Assembly: GCA_944322175.1 (NCBI GenBank)
Contig: CALUOB010000156.1
Location: forward strand, 1 to 36,566
Length of the DNA: 36,566 bases
Direction: 5' to 3'
DNA from: an uncultured Coriobacteriaceae bacterium
GTDB lineage: Bacteria; Actinomycetota; Coriobacteriia; Coriobacteriales; Coriobacteriaceae
Shown here in pieces: positions 7,580 to 34,254 of this stretch (positions within the stretch are counted from its first letter, which is position 1; each line of letters opens with the position of its first letter). The notes below the pieces were generated by a model. It did not search any database and was not told the DNA's origin. It saw only the letters and a list, made by a program, of their open reading frames with translations. The position numbers and the translations under genes were made by a program.

Positions 7580-8230
7580 CTAGTACAGCGGCAGCTTGCC
7601 GGTAAGCGGATCGATCTGCTCGGGGAAGAGCGGCTCGAAGGCCAGACAGGTGTAGGTGGGCTCGCCATGGAACTCGGTGTAGCCCGCGTCGCGCACGAGC
7701 GCCACTACAAAGCCGCGCTCGCGCCCGGCCTCGGCAAGGCCGAGAAGCTCCTCCTCGGAGTCAACGTACACGCAGATCTTGGCAACGCCCGCGTCGAACC
7801 ACGCCTGCAGGGGCGAAACCTCGGGCTCGTCGGTGTCCTTCTCGGCGGCGTCCTCTGCGGGCTGACCGGCGGCGGCCACAGGCGCCGACGCGCCCGTGCG
7901 TACGGCGGCAGCGCGCTGGGCAAGCGCGTCGTCCATCATGCCACGGCCGAACATCCCCATGGCAAGGTAGGCGAGCGGGCCCATGGGCTTGTCGGCGTCG
8001 GGCGCGCCCTTGGGCTTGGACCCAGCGTCTGCGGCCGGCTGCTCCGAGGTCTCCGCGGGGTCGGCGAGGCGGATCCAGTCGTTCTCGACCCGCACATCGC
8101 TGAGACGACCGTGGCGCACGAGCGCCATGAGCACCGCCTCGACGCAGGCATGGCCCGCCTGCGCCGCGATCTTGCCTTTGCGCATCTTGAGATCACGCCG
8201 CATTACAATGACTTGCTTGGCCTTGTACAT
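7580..8230 (-). CDS. PTH2-type peptidyl-tRNA hydrolase with large internal insert
   Basis: Peptidyl-tRNA hydrolases free tRNA from stalled peptides. Both ends of this 216-residue protein fit the archaeal/eukaryotic PTH2 family: KQVIVMRRDLKMRKGKIAAQAGHA at the start (Lys18/20 and His27 region) and ICVYVDSEEELLGLAE, LVRDAGYTEF (Asp181, Thr185) and IDPLTGKLPLY at the end. The family is normally about 115-120 residues. Here roughly residues 43-140 are extra: an acidic, Ala/Pro-rich stretch with a short hydrophobic piece (PLAYLAMGMFGRGMM). The start at 8230 is preferred to an ATG 7 codons earlier because a GAGAG-like site precedes it. The insert may be a linker or a partner-binding region; it could change activity. 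Confidence 0.8.
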   Translation of the reverse strand: MYKAKQVIVMRRDLKMRKGKIAAQAGHACVEAVLMALVRHGRLSDVRVENDWIRLADPAETSEQPAADAGSKPKGAPDADKPMGPLAYLAMGMFGRGMMDDALAQRAAAVRTGASAPVAAAGQPAEDAAEKDTDEPEVSPLQAWFDAGVAKICVYVDSEEELLGLAEAGRERGFVVALVRDAGYTEFHGEPTYTCLAFEPLFPEQIDPLTGKLPLY

Positions 8231-8430
8231 AGTTCGTTCTCTCTTGATCATGTGCTAGAAGCCGCGCGTCTGCCGCGCGGATCGGGCCAGATCAGCCGGC
8301 CCTGCGGAGCACAAAATACCACGATCAGGCTGTTGCCCGCTCCGTCACCTGCAAATTCCACGACGCCCCGCGCGAAGAGGACTTAAGCCTTGCTGGATAC
8401 CGCGTCGCATGCCCCGCATGCACACGGGCA

Positions 8431-9010
8431 AGCTGCGCAACGCCCCCGCTCGGGAGAAAAACAGGCATCAGAGCCGGCTCGCCAAGTTCTTCTCGCACAA
8501 CGTCTCGGCTTGGGAGAAAAGCGAGGGTCAGAGACGCTAAGCCCGGCATTTCTCGCACAACGTCTCGGCTTGGGAGAGATTAGGGTGCGCAAGGTCCCGG
8601 CTTGAGAGAGGCTCCTGATACCGCACCTCTCTGACCAGGGCTTTTATCAACCACGCCGATTGACCAAGAGCCCTCGACTCTCCCAAGGCGGGACGTTGCG
8701 CCGTAATCTGCGCGCTTTGTCTCGGCTTGGGGGAGATGGGCTGCGCAAGGTCCCGGCTTGGGAGAAAAGCGAGGGTCAGAGACGCTAAGCCCGGCATTTC
8801 TCGCACAACGTCTCGGCTTGGGAGAGATTGGGGTGCGCAAGGTCCCTGCTTGGGAGGGGCGCCGAAAAAGACATCGCCTCTACCTGCGGGAACGCCGCCG
8901 TTCATCCGTGCTCGAATGGGCAGGTTTCTCCCAAGGCGGGACGTTGTGCAAATTCCGGCGCCATCCCCGCCTCCAACCGGCAGAACTCTCCCAAGGCGGG
9001 ACGTTGTGCA
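8431..9010. repeat. CRISPR-like array of 22-30-bp repeats in both orientations, 60-bp steps
   Basis: The unit ends in CGTCTCGGCTTGGGAGA, preceded by GCACAA or GCGCAA. Direct copies begin at about 8435, 8495, 8555, 8587, 8712, 8743, 8803 and 8835; inverted copies occupy about 8678-8701, 8927-8949 and 8987-9009. Spacing is exactly 60 bp for 8435/8495/8555, 8743/8803 and the last two inverted copies, and 32 bp for 8555/8587 and 8803/8835. Bases 8521-8580 recur exactly at 8769-8828, so a block was duplicated with a 248-bp offset. Two subtypes occur (ACAACGTCTC and GCAAGGTCCC). Complete units have TTCTC / GAGAA ends, so each can form a small hairpin. The array fills the gap between recQ and the PTH2 gene and holds no gene; 8231-8430 shows nothing else. 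Confidence 0.85.
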
Positions 9011-9019
9011 AAGCGCAGT

Positions 9020-11086
9020 CTATGCGCGGGCCTCATCTTCGTAGGCGGCGATCTCGGCCATGAAGGGCTCGCCGTAGCGCTCGAGCTTCTTGGCACCCAC
9101 GCCGGGCACAGCCAAGAACTCGTCGTCGGTAGCAGGCCGGCGGCGGCACATGGCGCGCAGCGCGGCGTCCGAAAAAACGATGTACGGCGGCACGTTAGCC
9201 TCGTCGGCAAGGTCCTTGCGCAGCGCGCGCAAGCGCTCGAACAGCTCGGGGTCGGACCCAGGGCGGTCGCGCTTGGCATCGGCGTCGTCGAGAAGCGCGT
9301 CCACGCGCGCACGGCGGGCGCGCTCCGCCGCACGGGCAGACTCGCGCGCCGAGCGCTTGAGCGTGAACGTGAACCCCTCCTGACGCGCCTCGTCGGCGCG
9401 CGGCCCGAGCCCGAGCACCGGGTACTTGGCGTCGGACAGTGCCAGAAACCCGCGGCCCGCGAGCTGGTCGAGAACCTCGCGCACGCGCGGCATCGAAGCG
9501 CTCACCGTGCCGTAGCTCGGCAACGCGTCGAGCCCGAGCGAGAGGACCTTCTCAGACTCCGACCCGGTGAGGACCTCGGCCACGCGCGACTTGCCAAAGC
9601 GGCCGCCCATCTCGGCCACACAGCGCACGGCCGCCTGCGCAATGGGCGTCACGTCCTCCTCGGAGAAGCTGCCCAGGCAGTTGGAGCAGTTGCCGCAGTC
9701 AGAACCGGGGTTCTCGCCAAAGTAGCGCAGGATGTACGAGCGCAGGCACCCCGTGGTGCGGCAGTACCCCTCCATCTGCTTGAGCAGACGGTAGCGGTTG
9801 GCGCGCGCCTGGGCGAGCTGCTCCTCCGAAAGCGCCTCGCCGTCAGCACCCGTGGCACCCGCATCGGTGCGATCGATAAGAAAGCGGCGGATCGCCACGT
9901 CGTGGCCGTTCCACAAAAGCAGGCACTGCGCAGCCTCGCCGTCGCGTCCGGCACGGCCGGCCTCTTGGTAGTACGCCTCGATGCTCTCGGGCATGTTGTG
10001 GTGGATCACGTAGCGCACGTTGGACTTGTCGATGCCCATGCCAAAGGCGTTGGTAGCCACGATCACCGGCGCGTCGTCGGCCACAAAGGCGCGCTGGTTC
10101 TCGGCGCGCTCAGCAGCAGAAAGCCCCGCGTGGTAGCGCGTTGCCGGCACGCCCGCGCGGCGCAGCTCGTCCCAAAGCTCGTCGACCGCCTTGCGCGTCG
10201 AGCAGTACACAATGCCCGACTCGCCTGCATGCGCCTGCGCGTACCCCACGATGCGCGAGGTCTTGGCGCCCTCGCCCAGCTCCTCCACGCCAAAGTACAG
10301 GTTGGGCCGATCAAAGCCGGTGACCTGCGTAAACGGATTGCGCAGGCCGAGAAGCTCGATGATGTCGGCACGCACGCGAGCCGTTGCCGTTGCGGTGTAC
10401 GCCGCCACCACGGGCCGCCGGGGCAGCGCCGCCACAAACGCGGCGATGCCGGTGTAGGAGGGCCTGAAGTCCTGGCCCCACTGGCTCACGCAGTGGGCCT
10501 CGTCGACCGCCACGAGCGGCACGCTGAGGCTCTGGGCAAACGCCACAAAGCGCGGATCCTGCAGGCGCTCGGGCGCCACGTACATGATCTGGTACCATCC
10601 GCGTCGCGCGCGCTCGAGCACGACCTCTTGCTGGCGCGGCGTGAGCGTTGAGTTAAAGAATGCGGGCCGCGCGCCGGCATCTTTGAGGGCACGCACTTGG
10701 TCGCCCATAAGCGAGACGAGCGGCGAAATCACGAGCGTAAGGGTCGCCGGCGCGTGCGCTGCAGACACCGCGGCCGCCCCTTCGGCACCCGGCGTACCCG
10801 CAACCCCGGCCGAGAACAGCGTCGCGTCGGCCGCGCACGCGGGGCCCGAGCCCCCTGCGGGAGCGAGGTGCTCAGGGTCAGGCGCACCGCCGGCCGCCGC
10901 CCGCTCGGCAGCCTCGAAGAGCACAAGGGCGGGCACCTGGTAGCACACCGACTTGCCGGCGCCCGTGGGCATGACGCCCAGCACGTCGCGCCCCGCGAGA
11001 ACCGCCTCCACCAGCGCCTCCTGCCCGGGCCTAAACGACTCGTAGCCAAAGTAGCGCCTCAGACAGTCCAGCGCGTCGGTTCGCAT
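9020..11086 (-). CDS. recQ: ATP-dependent DNA helicase RecQ
   Basis: The 688-residue 3'-5' helicase acts in recombination and fork repair. Order of parts: N-terminal LRRYFGYESFRPGQEALVEAVL, Walker A MPTGAGKS (40-46), DEAH box at 195-198 in VDEAHCVSQWGQDFRPSY, helicase C-lobe with ATNAFGMGIDKSNVRYVIH and YYQEAGRAGRDG, a zinc-binding RQC region with CGNCSNC, and a C-terminal HRDC domain (LRALRKDLADEANVPPYIVFSD ... PGVGAKKLERYGE). Residues about 59-114, between motifs I and Ia, are an Ala/Gly/Pro-rich insert absent from standard RecQ. The start at 11086 follows GGGGAGAAG. It lies downstream of lemA-DUF2207 but is separated by 421 bp with its own -10 box. Confidence 0.96.
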   Translation of the reverse strand: MRTDALDCLRRYFGYESFRPGQEALVEAVLAGRDVLGVMPTGAGKSVCYQVPALVLFEAAERAAAGGAPDPEHLAPAGGSGPACAADATLFSAGVAGTPGAEGAAAVSAAHAPATLTLVISPLVSLMGDQVRALKDAGARPAFFNSTLTPRQQEVVLERARRGWYQIMYVAPERLQDPRFVAFAQSLSVPLVAVDEAHCVSQWGQDFRPSYTGIAAFVAALPRRPVVAAYTATATARVRADIIELLGLRNPFTQVTGFDRPNLYFGVEELGEGAKTSRIVGYAQAHAGESGIVYCSTRKAVDELWDELRRAGVPATRYHAGLSAAERAENQRAFVADDAPVIVATNAFGMGIDKSNVRYVIHHNMPESIEAYYQEAGRAGRDGEAAQCLLLWNGHDVAIRRFLIDRTDAGATGADGEALSEEQLAQARANRYRLLKQMEGYCRTTGCLRSYILRYFGENPGSDCGNCSNCLGSFSEEDVTPIAQAAVRCVAEMGGRFGKSRVAEVLTGSESEKVLSLGLDALPSYGTVSASMPRVREVLDQLAGRGFLALSDAKYPVLGLGPRADEARQEGFTFTLKRSARESARAAERARRARVDALLDDADAKRDRPGSDPELFERLRALRKDLADEANVPPYIVFSDAALRAMCRRRPATDDEFLAVPGVGAKKLERYGEPFMAEIAAYEDEARA

Positions 11087-11179
11087 GTGCTTCTCCCCTA
11101 CGTTGCGGCGGTTGGGCAGCCGGCTGCGGCATGCGCAGCGCACGCCGGCAGTGCGGCCGCCCTTCTCGTGAATGAAGCC

Positions 11180-16029: not shown

Positions 16030-17013
16030 TTAGTAGGTGAGCTTCCACATGTAGCGACGCTTGGTCAGCGGGTGCTGGCGGGCGTCGGCCAGATGCTCGG
16101 CGAAGACGCGCATAACGGCGGTGTGGACGATGGGGTTGAAGTAGGTGGCAACGCTTGCGGGCACGCAGCCGGACAGGCCGAAGTCCTTGGCGTCGATCAC
16201 CAGGTAGCGGGCGTCAAAGCGCTGCAGGAAGGTGAGGGCGCGGGCGTCCATCTTGCGGGTGGCGCCGTCGGCCATGAACAGCACGAAGTTGTGCTTGTCG
16301 TCCGTGAGCTCGAAGGGGCCGTGGAAGAACTCGCCGGAGTTGAAGTTGCCGGAGTTGATCCACTGCATCTCCATCATGAGGAACATGGAGGTGGAGTAGG
16401 CGACCTTCTCGCTCGCGCCGGAAGCCAGGAAGTGGATGCAGTCGTCGTCCTTGTGCTCCTGAGCCCACTCCTCGGCAACCTTGCCCACGGACTGAGCGGC
16501 CTTCTCGGCGCACTCAAAGACGTTGGCGAAGCCCTGAACCATCTCGTCGTAGTGGTCGTAGCCCTCGACCTGCTGGAGGATCTCGAGCGCCACGGCAATG
16601 GCGTAGCCCATCTTCTCGGTCTTGGCGGCGTAGTTGGCCTCGAAGCCGTGCACGATGGCGTGGTCAACGCCCTCGGTGAGCGGCGAGCCGGCGGCATGGG
16701 TAATGGCAACGACCGGAGCGCCCGCTGCCTTGGCGACCTTGTTGGCCTCGACCGTCTCGGGGGTGGTGCCGCCGAGCGAGCAGGTGATCACGAAGGTGTT
16801 GGGGCCGAGCCACGCCGGAGTGTCGTAGTTGAACTCGTTGGCGGTGAAGATCTGAACGTTGAACGTCTTAGTGTTGTTGGCAAGGAAGTACTTGGCCGGG
16901 TACAGCTCCGACATCGAGGCGCCGCAGCCCACGAAGGCGACGGAGTCGATCTCGTGGTTAGAGAGCACGTCGGCAACGATCTCACGGGGCTTGCTCAGGT
17001 CGATCTCGTACAT
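16030..17013 (-). CDS. SIS-domain deglycase, FrlB/GfrF-like (sugar-amine 6-phosphate)
   Basis: The 327-residue protein has two SIS domains. Visible parts are VAFVGCGASMSELYPAKYFL, ITCSLGGTTPETVEANKVAKAAGAPVVAIT (phosphosugar-binding Ser/Thr loop), NSGEFFHGPFE and a C-terminal RRYMWKLTY. The order and the GEFFHGPFE and YMWK motifs match FrlB/GfrE/GfrF deglycases, which split fructoselysine- or glucoselysine-6-phosphate into a hexose 6-phosphate and lysine; GlmS-type isomerases and AgaS are more distant. The start at 17013 follows GGGAGGA. It is last in the PTS operon, 254 bp after IID, with hairpins between. A second paralogue sits at 20446. Which substrate each takes is not decided by sequence. 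Confidence 0.82.
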   Translation of the reverse strand: MYEIDLSKPREIVADVLSNHEIDSVAFVGCGASMSELYPAKYFLANNTKTFNVQIFTANEFNYDTPAWLGPNTFVITCSLGGTTPETVEANKVAKAAGAPVVAITHAAGSPLTEGVDHAIVHGFEANYAAKTEKMGYAIAVALEILQQVEGYDHYDEMVQGFANVFECAEKAAQSVGKVAEEWAQEHKDDDCIHFLASGASEKVAYSTSMFLMMEMQWINSGNFNSGEFFHGPFELTDDKHNFVLFMADGATRKMDARALTFLQRFDARYLVIDAKDFGLSGCVPASVATYFNPIVHTAVMRVFAEHLADARQHPLTKRRYMWKLTY

Positions 17014-34177: not shown

Positions 34178-34188
34178 GCGCGCCGCCG

Positions 34189-34254
34189 CCCCGCCGCCGC
34201 TGCCCCGCCGCCGCTGCCCCGCCGCCACTGCACCGCCGCCACTGCACCGCCGTC
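34189..34254. repeat. 14-bp tandem repeat CCCCGCCGCCGCTG
   Basis: Four full copies (34189, 34203, 34217, 34231) and a partial fifth, with G-to-A and C-to-A changes in the later ones. It fills the gap between the regulator and nth and could vary in copy number. Confidence 0.8.

Follow-up and report, generated by a model that had tools for sequence, protein, structure and literature searches.

A repeat array of inverted modules between recQ and PTH2

The gap between the genes of a RecQ helicase (recQ) and a peptidyl-tRNA hydrolase (PTH2) holds an array of short repeats in both orientations, which raises the question of what kind of element it is: a degenerate CRISPR, a source of small hairpin RNAs, an array of protein-binding sites or a member of a dispersed repeat family. 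In the window (the whole stretch of 36,566 nucleotides that was analysed) the 17-nt unit core CGTCYCGGCTTGGGAGA matched eleven times with at most three mismatches, always at 8441-9003 and 0 times elsewhere, compared with a mean of 0.9 matches in mononucleotide shuffles of the window. The eleven copies that the first-pass annotation had placed between the two genes are thereby borne out. The features of the locus are:

7580..8251, minus strand: flanking gene PTH2, peptidyl-tRNA hydrolase, outside the element
8435..8457, plus strand: arm unit 1, degenerate, CGCCCCCGCTCGGGAGA
8495..8517, plus strand: arm unit 2, GCACAACGTCTCGGCTTGGGAGA, 60 bp after unit 1
8506..8581, plus strand: 76-nt block, exact repeat at 8754-8829 (local duplication or conversion within the island)
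8555..8577, plus strand: arm unit 3, 60 bp after unit 2
8587..8609, plus strand: arm unit 4, inner left unit of the first convergent module, 32 bp after unit 3
8626..8648, minus strand: degenerate core position of the first module, GATAAAAGC-CCTGGT-CAGAGAGG on the minus strand
8679..8701, minus strand: arm unit 5, inverted, closing the first 86-bp convergent module (8593-8695)
8712..8734, plus strand: arm unit 6, divergent from unit 5 at 39 bp
8743..8765, plus strand: arm unit 7
8803..8825, plus strand: arm unit 8
8835..8857, plus strand: arm unit 9, inner left unit of the second convergent module
8877..8896, minus strand: core motif GGCGTTCCCGCAGGTAGAGG, 2 mismatches to RRCGTTTCCGCAGGTARACG, in the second convergent module
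8927..8949, minus strand: arm unit 10, inverted, closing the second 86-bp convergent module (8841-8943)
8987..9009, minus strand: arm unit 11, inverted, 60 bp beyond unit 10
9020..11143, minus strand: flanking gene recQ, RecQ helicase, outside the element

The unit order is > > > > < > > > > < <, with successive steps of 60, 60, 32, 86, 39, 31, 60, 32, 86 and 60 bp. The first-pass annotation had correctly reported two steps of 32 bp, the inversion of the last two copies and an exact duplication at +248 bp. However, the 60-bp step occurs four times (8441-8501-8561, 8749-8809, 8927-8987) and not three, a 31-bp step occurs once, three units are inverted (8679, 8927, 8987) and not two, and the duplicated block is 76 nt long (8506-8581 = 8754-8829) and not 60 bp. 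The convergent 86-bp modules and the core motif in the second of them were absent from that reading. In another part of the window (34181-34252) there is a 14-bp tandem repeat, CGCCGCTGCCCCGC, in five copies.

The resemblance to a CRISPR, which had also been pointed out, lies in the repeat with its linker of about 30 bp and is superficial: the orientation is mixed, the 76-nt repeated block includes linkers, no cas gene was found among six flanking proteins (the matches at RecQ are helicase cross-matches) and the unit had no viral match. An independent assembly shows the same architecture at orthologous sites, which speaks against an assembly artefact. We regard the probability of either a degenerate CRISPR or an assembly artefact as negligible.

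The unit forms intergenic islands in two closely related species

The genome from which the window comes (G000; 2.1 Mb, 167 contigs) contains 152 matches to the unit core with at most three mismatches, while the reversed-pattern control gave 2. These copies form about 17 intergenic islands of 4 to 19 units each. With at most one mismatch there were 87 copies in G000 and 93 in a sister species (G003, an uncultured Collinsella represented by a MAG), against 0 or 1 in 65 other genomes of the family; two other species of the genus had 0. An exact search of 84,980 species with a degenerate 23-nt unit pattern matched only G003, recorded as 'uncultured Collinsella sp. SI.A14.metabat-bins.139'. Other dispersed short repeats, unrelated to the window unit, were seen at L036:2808-2883 and L044:3356-3755, with many copies in G003.

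At least 14 of the G000 islands have a counterpart island at the orthologous position of G003. Their flanks are mostly 85-97% identical and their interiors align at 66-69% identity, with units differing in number and order. As the two species share most island sites, recent movement of islands is not demonstrated, and we found no cleanly empty site that showed a target duplication. Inverted arms are present, yet the outer ends of the islands vary. The flanks of one G000 island (L046) adjoin two different islands about 6 kb apart on one G003 contig (L067:6544-16276 vs L046:1-3987), an arrangement consistent with deletion or insertion through recombination between islands.

The proposal of a new intergenic repeat family is supported by these islands and unit copies, by the orthologous islands in the sister species and by the lack of an Rfam match. 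The first-pass annotation had named as a refuting outcome the occurrence of the unit throughout the genome in ordinary terminators; the unit is indeed genome-wide, but it lies in large mixed-orientation islands instead of terminators. It was also right that no associated genes accompany the array at the window locus, and islands elsewhere adjoin unrelated housekeeping genes. By crude gene calls, the genes around 58 islands were in tandem at 33, convergent at 17 and divergent at 8.

Spacing is fixed while linkers are free

Across all islands of the window unit (family A), neighbouring units in the same direction are 32 or 60 bp apart, divergent ones 39/40 bp and convergent ones 86/87 or 42/43 bp. 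A conserved TTnGAG near the middle of the 60-bp step suggests that this step comprises two of 30 bp around a degenerate middle copy. Inside the 86/87-bp modules the motif GRCGTTTCCGCAGGTARA lies at a fixed distance, and in G000 and G003 a GCAGGT-like hexamer was found at the same offset from the left unit core in 41 of 41 modules. When the modules are turned with GCAGGT forward, a 60-bp step lies on the left and mostly a 32-bp step on the right, and this asymmetry makes the element polar.

Among 39 modules the units averaged 87% pairwise identity, the box around the hexamer 70% and the linkers 45%, and the combination of constant length with free linker sequence suggests spacing for proteins. 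The unit logo has two conserved blocks with free positions between them, a pattern that would be expected of protein recognition. CGTC follows GCRCAA within a conserved block, and TCYY/GGGA could form a stem of 4 bp. Of the functions put forward in the first-pass annotation, a protein-binding array is therefore the one we favour for the units, in that unit sequence and spacing are conserved, linkers are not and the arms do not covary.

Islands fold strongly without covariation

The array region of the window folds strongly (z about -6) through inverted units pairing with one another, and islands fold far better than shuffles (z -5.1 to -8.2). Among 370 family A units, no stem position pair was among the strongest covariations. 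Left and right arms within islands of family A and of family B, a second unit described below, likewise showed no excess complementarity; the rows of this test were not all turned by core, so that its negative z values are not interpretable and the lack of excess complementarity is. Arm pairing as a conserved property is thus rejected for families A and B. A central hairpin, CCG[CAGGTAAA]CGG, with a covarying stem was also rejected (best-helix score 9.37, compared with 9.34 for shuffled partners). Taken together, the lack of excess covariation within the unit, between the arms and around the hexamer argues against base pairing as a conserved property, despite the low folded energy.

The earlier idea that each unit can fold alone is accordingly weak, with no covariation inside the unit and a possible stem of just 3-4 bp, and small hairpin RNAs gain no support from covariation. 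In an Rfam search of the islands only tRNAs reached the gathering score. Weak matches to plant and animal miRNAs are artefacts of the inverted repeats, and a known RNA was discarded as an identity.

Different arms occupy islands in related species

The recQ-PTH2 gap of G001, a species of the same genus, holds an array of a different unit, GCGAGAANCGCGYTCRTACGA (family B), which has convergent arms and a step of 30 bp; the same gap of G002, also of this genus, contains a single inverted pair of GTGCAAACCTCGCRGTTAAAGTGCAC (family C) around GCGCAGGTAAACG. The family B unit has 102 copies in G001 and 112 in G002, compared with 4 to 5 in G000 and G003. The family C unit occurs in 15 copies, only in G002, and the complete pairs listed are all exactly 125 bp apart. 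A further arm family in G001, GCATGCATTTTCGTTCGC, has a 29-bp step. In another genus, G030 carries arms of TTGACAGAAATGGGCAATTTGGCAGT with a 31-bp step around CCGCAGGTAAACGG, plus at least two more arm families, and no repeat region was found in 400 kb of G058, from a fourth genus. Several arm families thus coexist in one genome in G002, G001 and G030.

Some B islands carry the central core (L123, with AACGTTTCCGCAGGTAAAAG, L135 and L132) and others a second centre type. This second type, seen in G001 (L102, L105, L107, L108, L110, L117, L118), contains GCATTATGTGCTTATCGCACG and GGTATGTTTTGGAC and is conserved between islands. Long hairpins (arms of 25-26 bp, loop of 12 nt; G030 L157:15596-15659 and 16039-16100) recur in several G030 islands beside core elements.

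Certain sites are common to species with different arms, namely recQ-PTH2 in four species and secA in two. At positions of G001 and G002 orthologous to A islands, an array was found in about 5 of 19 regions, compared with 3 of 79 control windows (p about 0.006 using a hand-scored count of five; at most 4 of 19 when the listed score cut-off is applied). Site conservation across species with different arms is only modest, and since there is mostly no array at the orthologous places in the other two species, island sites are partly shared hot spots and not fixed functional sites. About half of the B islands of G001 (9-10) lie on contig C3 (227,870 bp, a tenth of the genome) and none on contig C2 (241,808 bp), a bunching that could be regional organisation.

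A short core recurs across the order

The core RRCGTTTCCGCAGGTARACG was counted with at most three mismatches in 299 genomes of the order, with the reversed pattern as control. Counts for the core and the reversed pattern were 29 vs 2 in G248, 39 vs 5 in G121 and 29 vs 7 in G294, and 22 vs 3, 22 vs 2 and 23 vs 2 in G000, G002 and G003; many genomes of the order have counts of the core alone that are close to background. Ten genomes picked for core enrichment were examined for flanking inverted repeats better than 60 shuffles, and such inverted arms were present at 13 of 27 core sites, compared with 4 of 81 positions drawn at random from the same loci (Fisher 1.3e-6), which leaves about half of the tested core sites without significant inverted arms. 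Arms are common to loci within one genome (e.g., L255/L265, L256/L276, L261/L271) and different between genera. Steps of 31 bp recur in G226 and G294, and in the elements of G248 a perfect inner inverted repeat of 18 bp encloses the core.

Genomes of two other families of the order (f2 and f5), which we take to be Eggerthellaceae and Atopobiaceae, have elements built alike, with inverted arms, often a period of about 30 bp and often the same core, from unrelated arm units. We infer the unity of arms plus core across families from a short motif. Viral contigs contain 27 exact core matches, which by our own estimate is about chance expectation. Among the papers searched none dealt with the core sequence, and the two text matches were unrelated.

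No RAYT found in the two carriers and no transposase beside the islands examined

A search for Y1_Tnp (RAYT) found none in G000 (100% complete) or G003 (96%), which speaks against RAYT-driven REPs in these carriers. G002 and G001 have one Y1_Tnp gene each (L050:1501-1830 and L051:1501-1830), neither of them near an A, B or C unit or a core. There was no transposase gene beside any of the islands examined; G000 and G003 are fragmented MAGs, and an autonomous copy could hide in an assembly gap. Two L045 islands around one gene were considered as a composite element and rejected, the gene encoding a large surface-type protein with Laminin_G and phosphoesterase domains and not a transposase. The ORF of L101 between two B islands had no Pfam family match. 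A phage origin was rejected, as viral contigs contained no exact unit of arm families A, B or F.

Comparison with known repeat families

BOX elements contain internal repeat modules in variable number, and these are not known to form inverted arrays around a core. We know of no sequence relation between BOX and the element described here. BOX elements of Streptococcus pneumoniae (PMC3049150) resemble it in being modular and dispersed. BIME/REP sequences are imperfect palindromes accompanied by RAYT (Nunvar 2010, PMC2817692). The element shares with them an intergenic location, more than 100 unit copies per genome, regularly spaced clusters in both orientations, species-specific unit sequences and length polymorphism; it differs in that the unit lacks self-complementary covariation, the carriers lack RAYT and the core is common to several arm families. 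With REPINs (PMC3116915, PMC8049555) it has in common two inverted units around a diverse spacer and one sequence population per genome, whereas its arms are arrays of several units stepping by about 30 bp, its spacer contains a fixed core motif and RAYT was not found. The shared island sites of the two close species suggest vertical persistence as in REPINs. CGTC-tagged REPs, reported from Proteobacteria, Chlorobi, Bacteroidetes, Spirochaetes and Thermotogae, have an 8-9 bp stem directly after a terminal CGTC, a 4-5 nt loop and rare clusters (Di Nocera 2013, PMC3733652). The likeness here is CGTC in the unit, inverted dimers and the lack of an associated transposase; in contrast, the present unit has a possible stem of 3-4 bp, an internal CGTC and large clusters. 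The element is most like BIMEs and REPINs, two of whose defining traits, the palindromic unit and the RAYT, were not found here.

Weighing the explanations

Our main reading, to which we give a probability of roughly one half, is that the island is a member of a genome-wide non-coding mosaic population that is REPIN/BIME-like, persists vertically and has swappable, probably protein-bound arms. An element would have a short centre, often carrying GRCGTTTCCGCAGGTARA, and on either side of it, in inverted orientation, direct arrays of arm units of about 22-26 bp that follow one another at a base step of about 30 bp. The arm units may be bound by a DNA-binding protein specific to the lineage, an enzyme copying or recombining the element, and the core may be recognised by a factor common to the order. 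Islands would grow by local duplication and by recombination between copies, and the population would be inherited vertically like REPINs and BIMEs but with a different enzyme, its mobility being presumed. The fixed spacings and free linkers would also suit immobile host sites for a nucleoid or segregation protein that organise the chromosome, with arms differing as the specificity of the protein drifts. Such a role could also accommodate the sites common to species with different arms (recQ-PTH2 and secA) and the bunching of B islands on one G001 contig (9-10 in 228 kb; none in the 242 kb of C2), but most sites are unshared (about 5/19 regions vs 3/79 control windows), G002, G001 and G030 each hold several arm families, and copy numbers and orientations vary freely, so that we consider it unlikely.

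Transcription of the islands as structured RNA or as 3′ mRNA hairpins, including terminators, with the inverted arms as long stems and the core in the loop, seems quite unlikely to us: islands do fold better than shuffles, few of them lie between divergent genes (8/58, under-represented) and the core in G248 is enclosed by the 18-bp perfect inverted repeat, but neither the island arms, nor the units, nor the surroundings of the core covary, some islands do lie between divergent genes, the A arms differ in step on the two sides of the core (60 left, 32 right) and tRNAs were the sole Rfam families at gathering score. Inverted arrays of sites of about 22-24 bp are a known design of Tn7 and Mu ends, and the arm layout could reflect MITE-like derivatives of such transposons, with arms as end-binding arrays for a transposase and several derivatives abutting in each island. 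The exact 125-bp pairs of family C look like single short elements and the divergent junction is constant at 39/40 bp, as such an origin would have it; since no transposase gene adjoins any examined island, one island has as many as 22 units and a conserved core is unexpected for a MITE, we hold this origin to be distinctly improbable. Returning to the mosaic population, we propose, as a tentative extension and at rather less than even odds, that it belongs to order-wide non-coding elements of the Coriobacteriales with the conserved core GRCGTTTCCGCAGGTARA, interchangeable inverted arm arrays, a core-recognising machinery and fast-evolving arm-binding proteins, which would make it a second long-lived bacterial sequence population besides REPINs.

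Implications

According to a 2021 study, no sequence population other than REPINs is, as far as its authors know, maintained stably within prokaryote genomes (PMC8049555). The lineage-specific arm words around a common core point to an undescribed family of dispersed elements. It forms a population in an order associated with the human gut, at a copy number similar to that of REPINs and without their enzyme; between species the arms are replaced and a short core is retained. Should the core hold up across families, it would help to find the protein by which such elements are kept alive, and the arm swaps would be a natural experiment in the joint change of a DNA-binding specificity and its sites.
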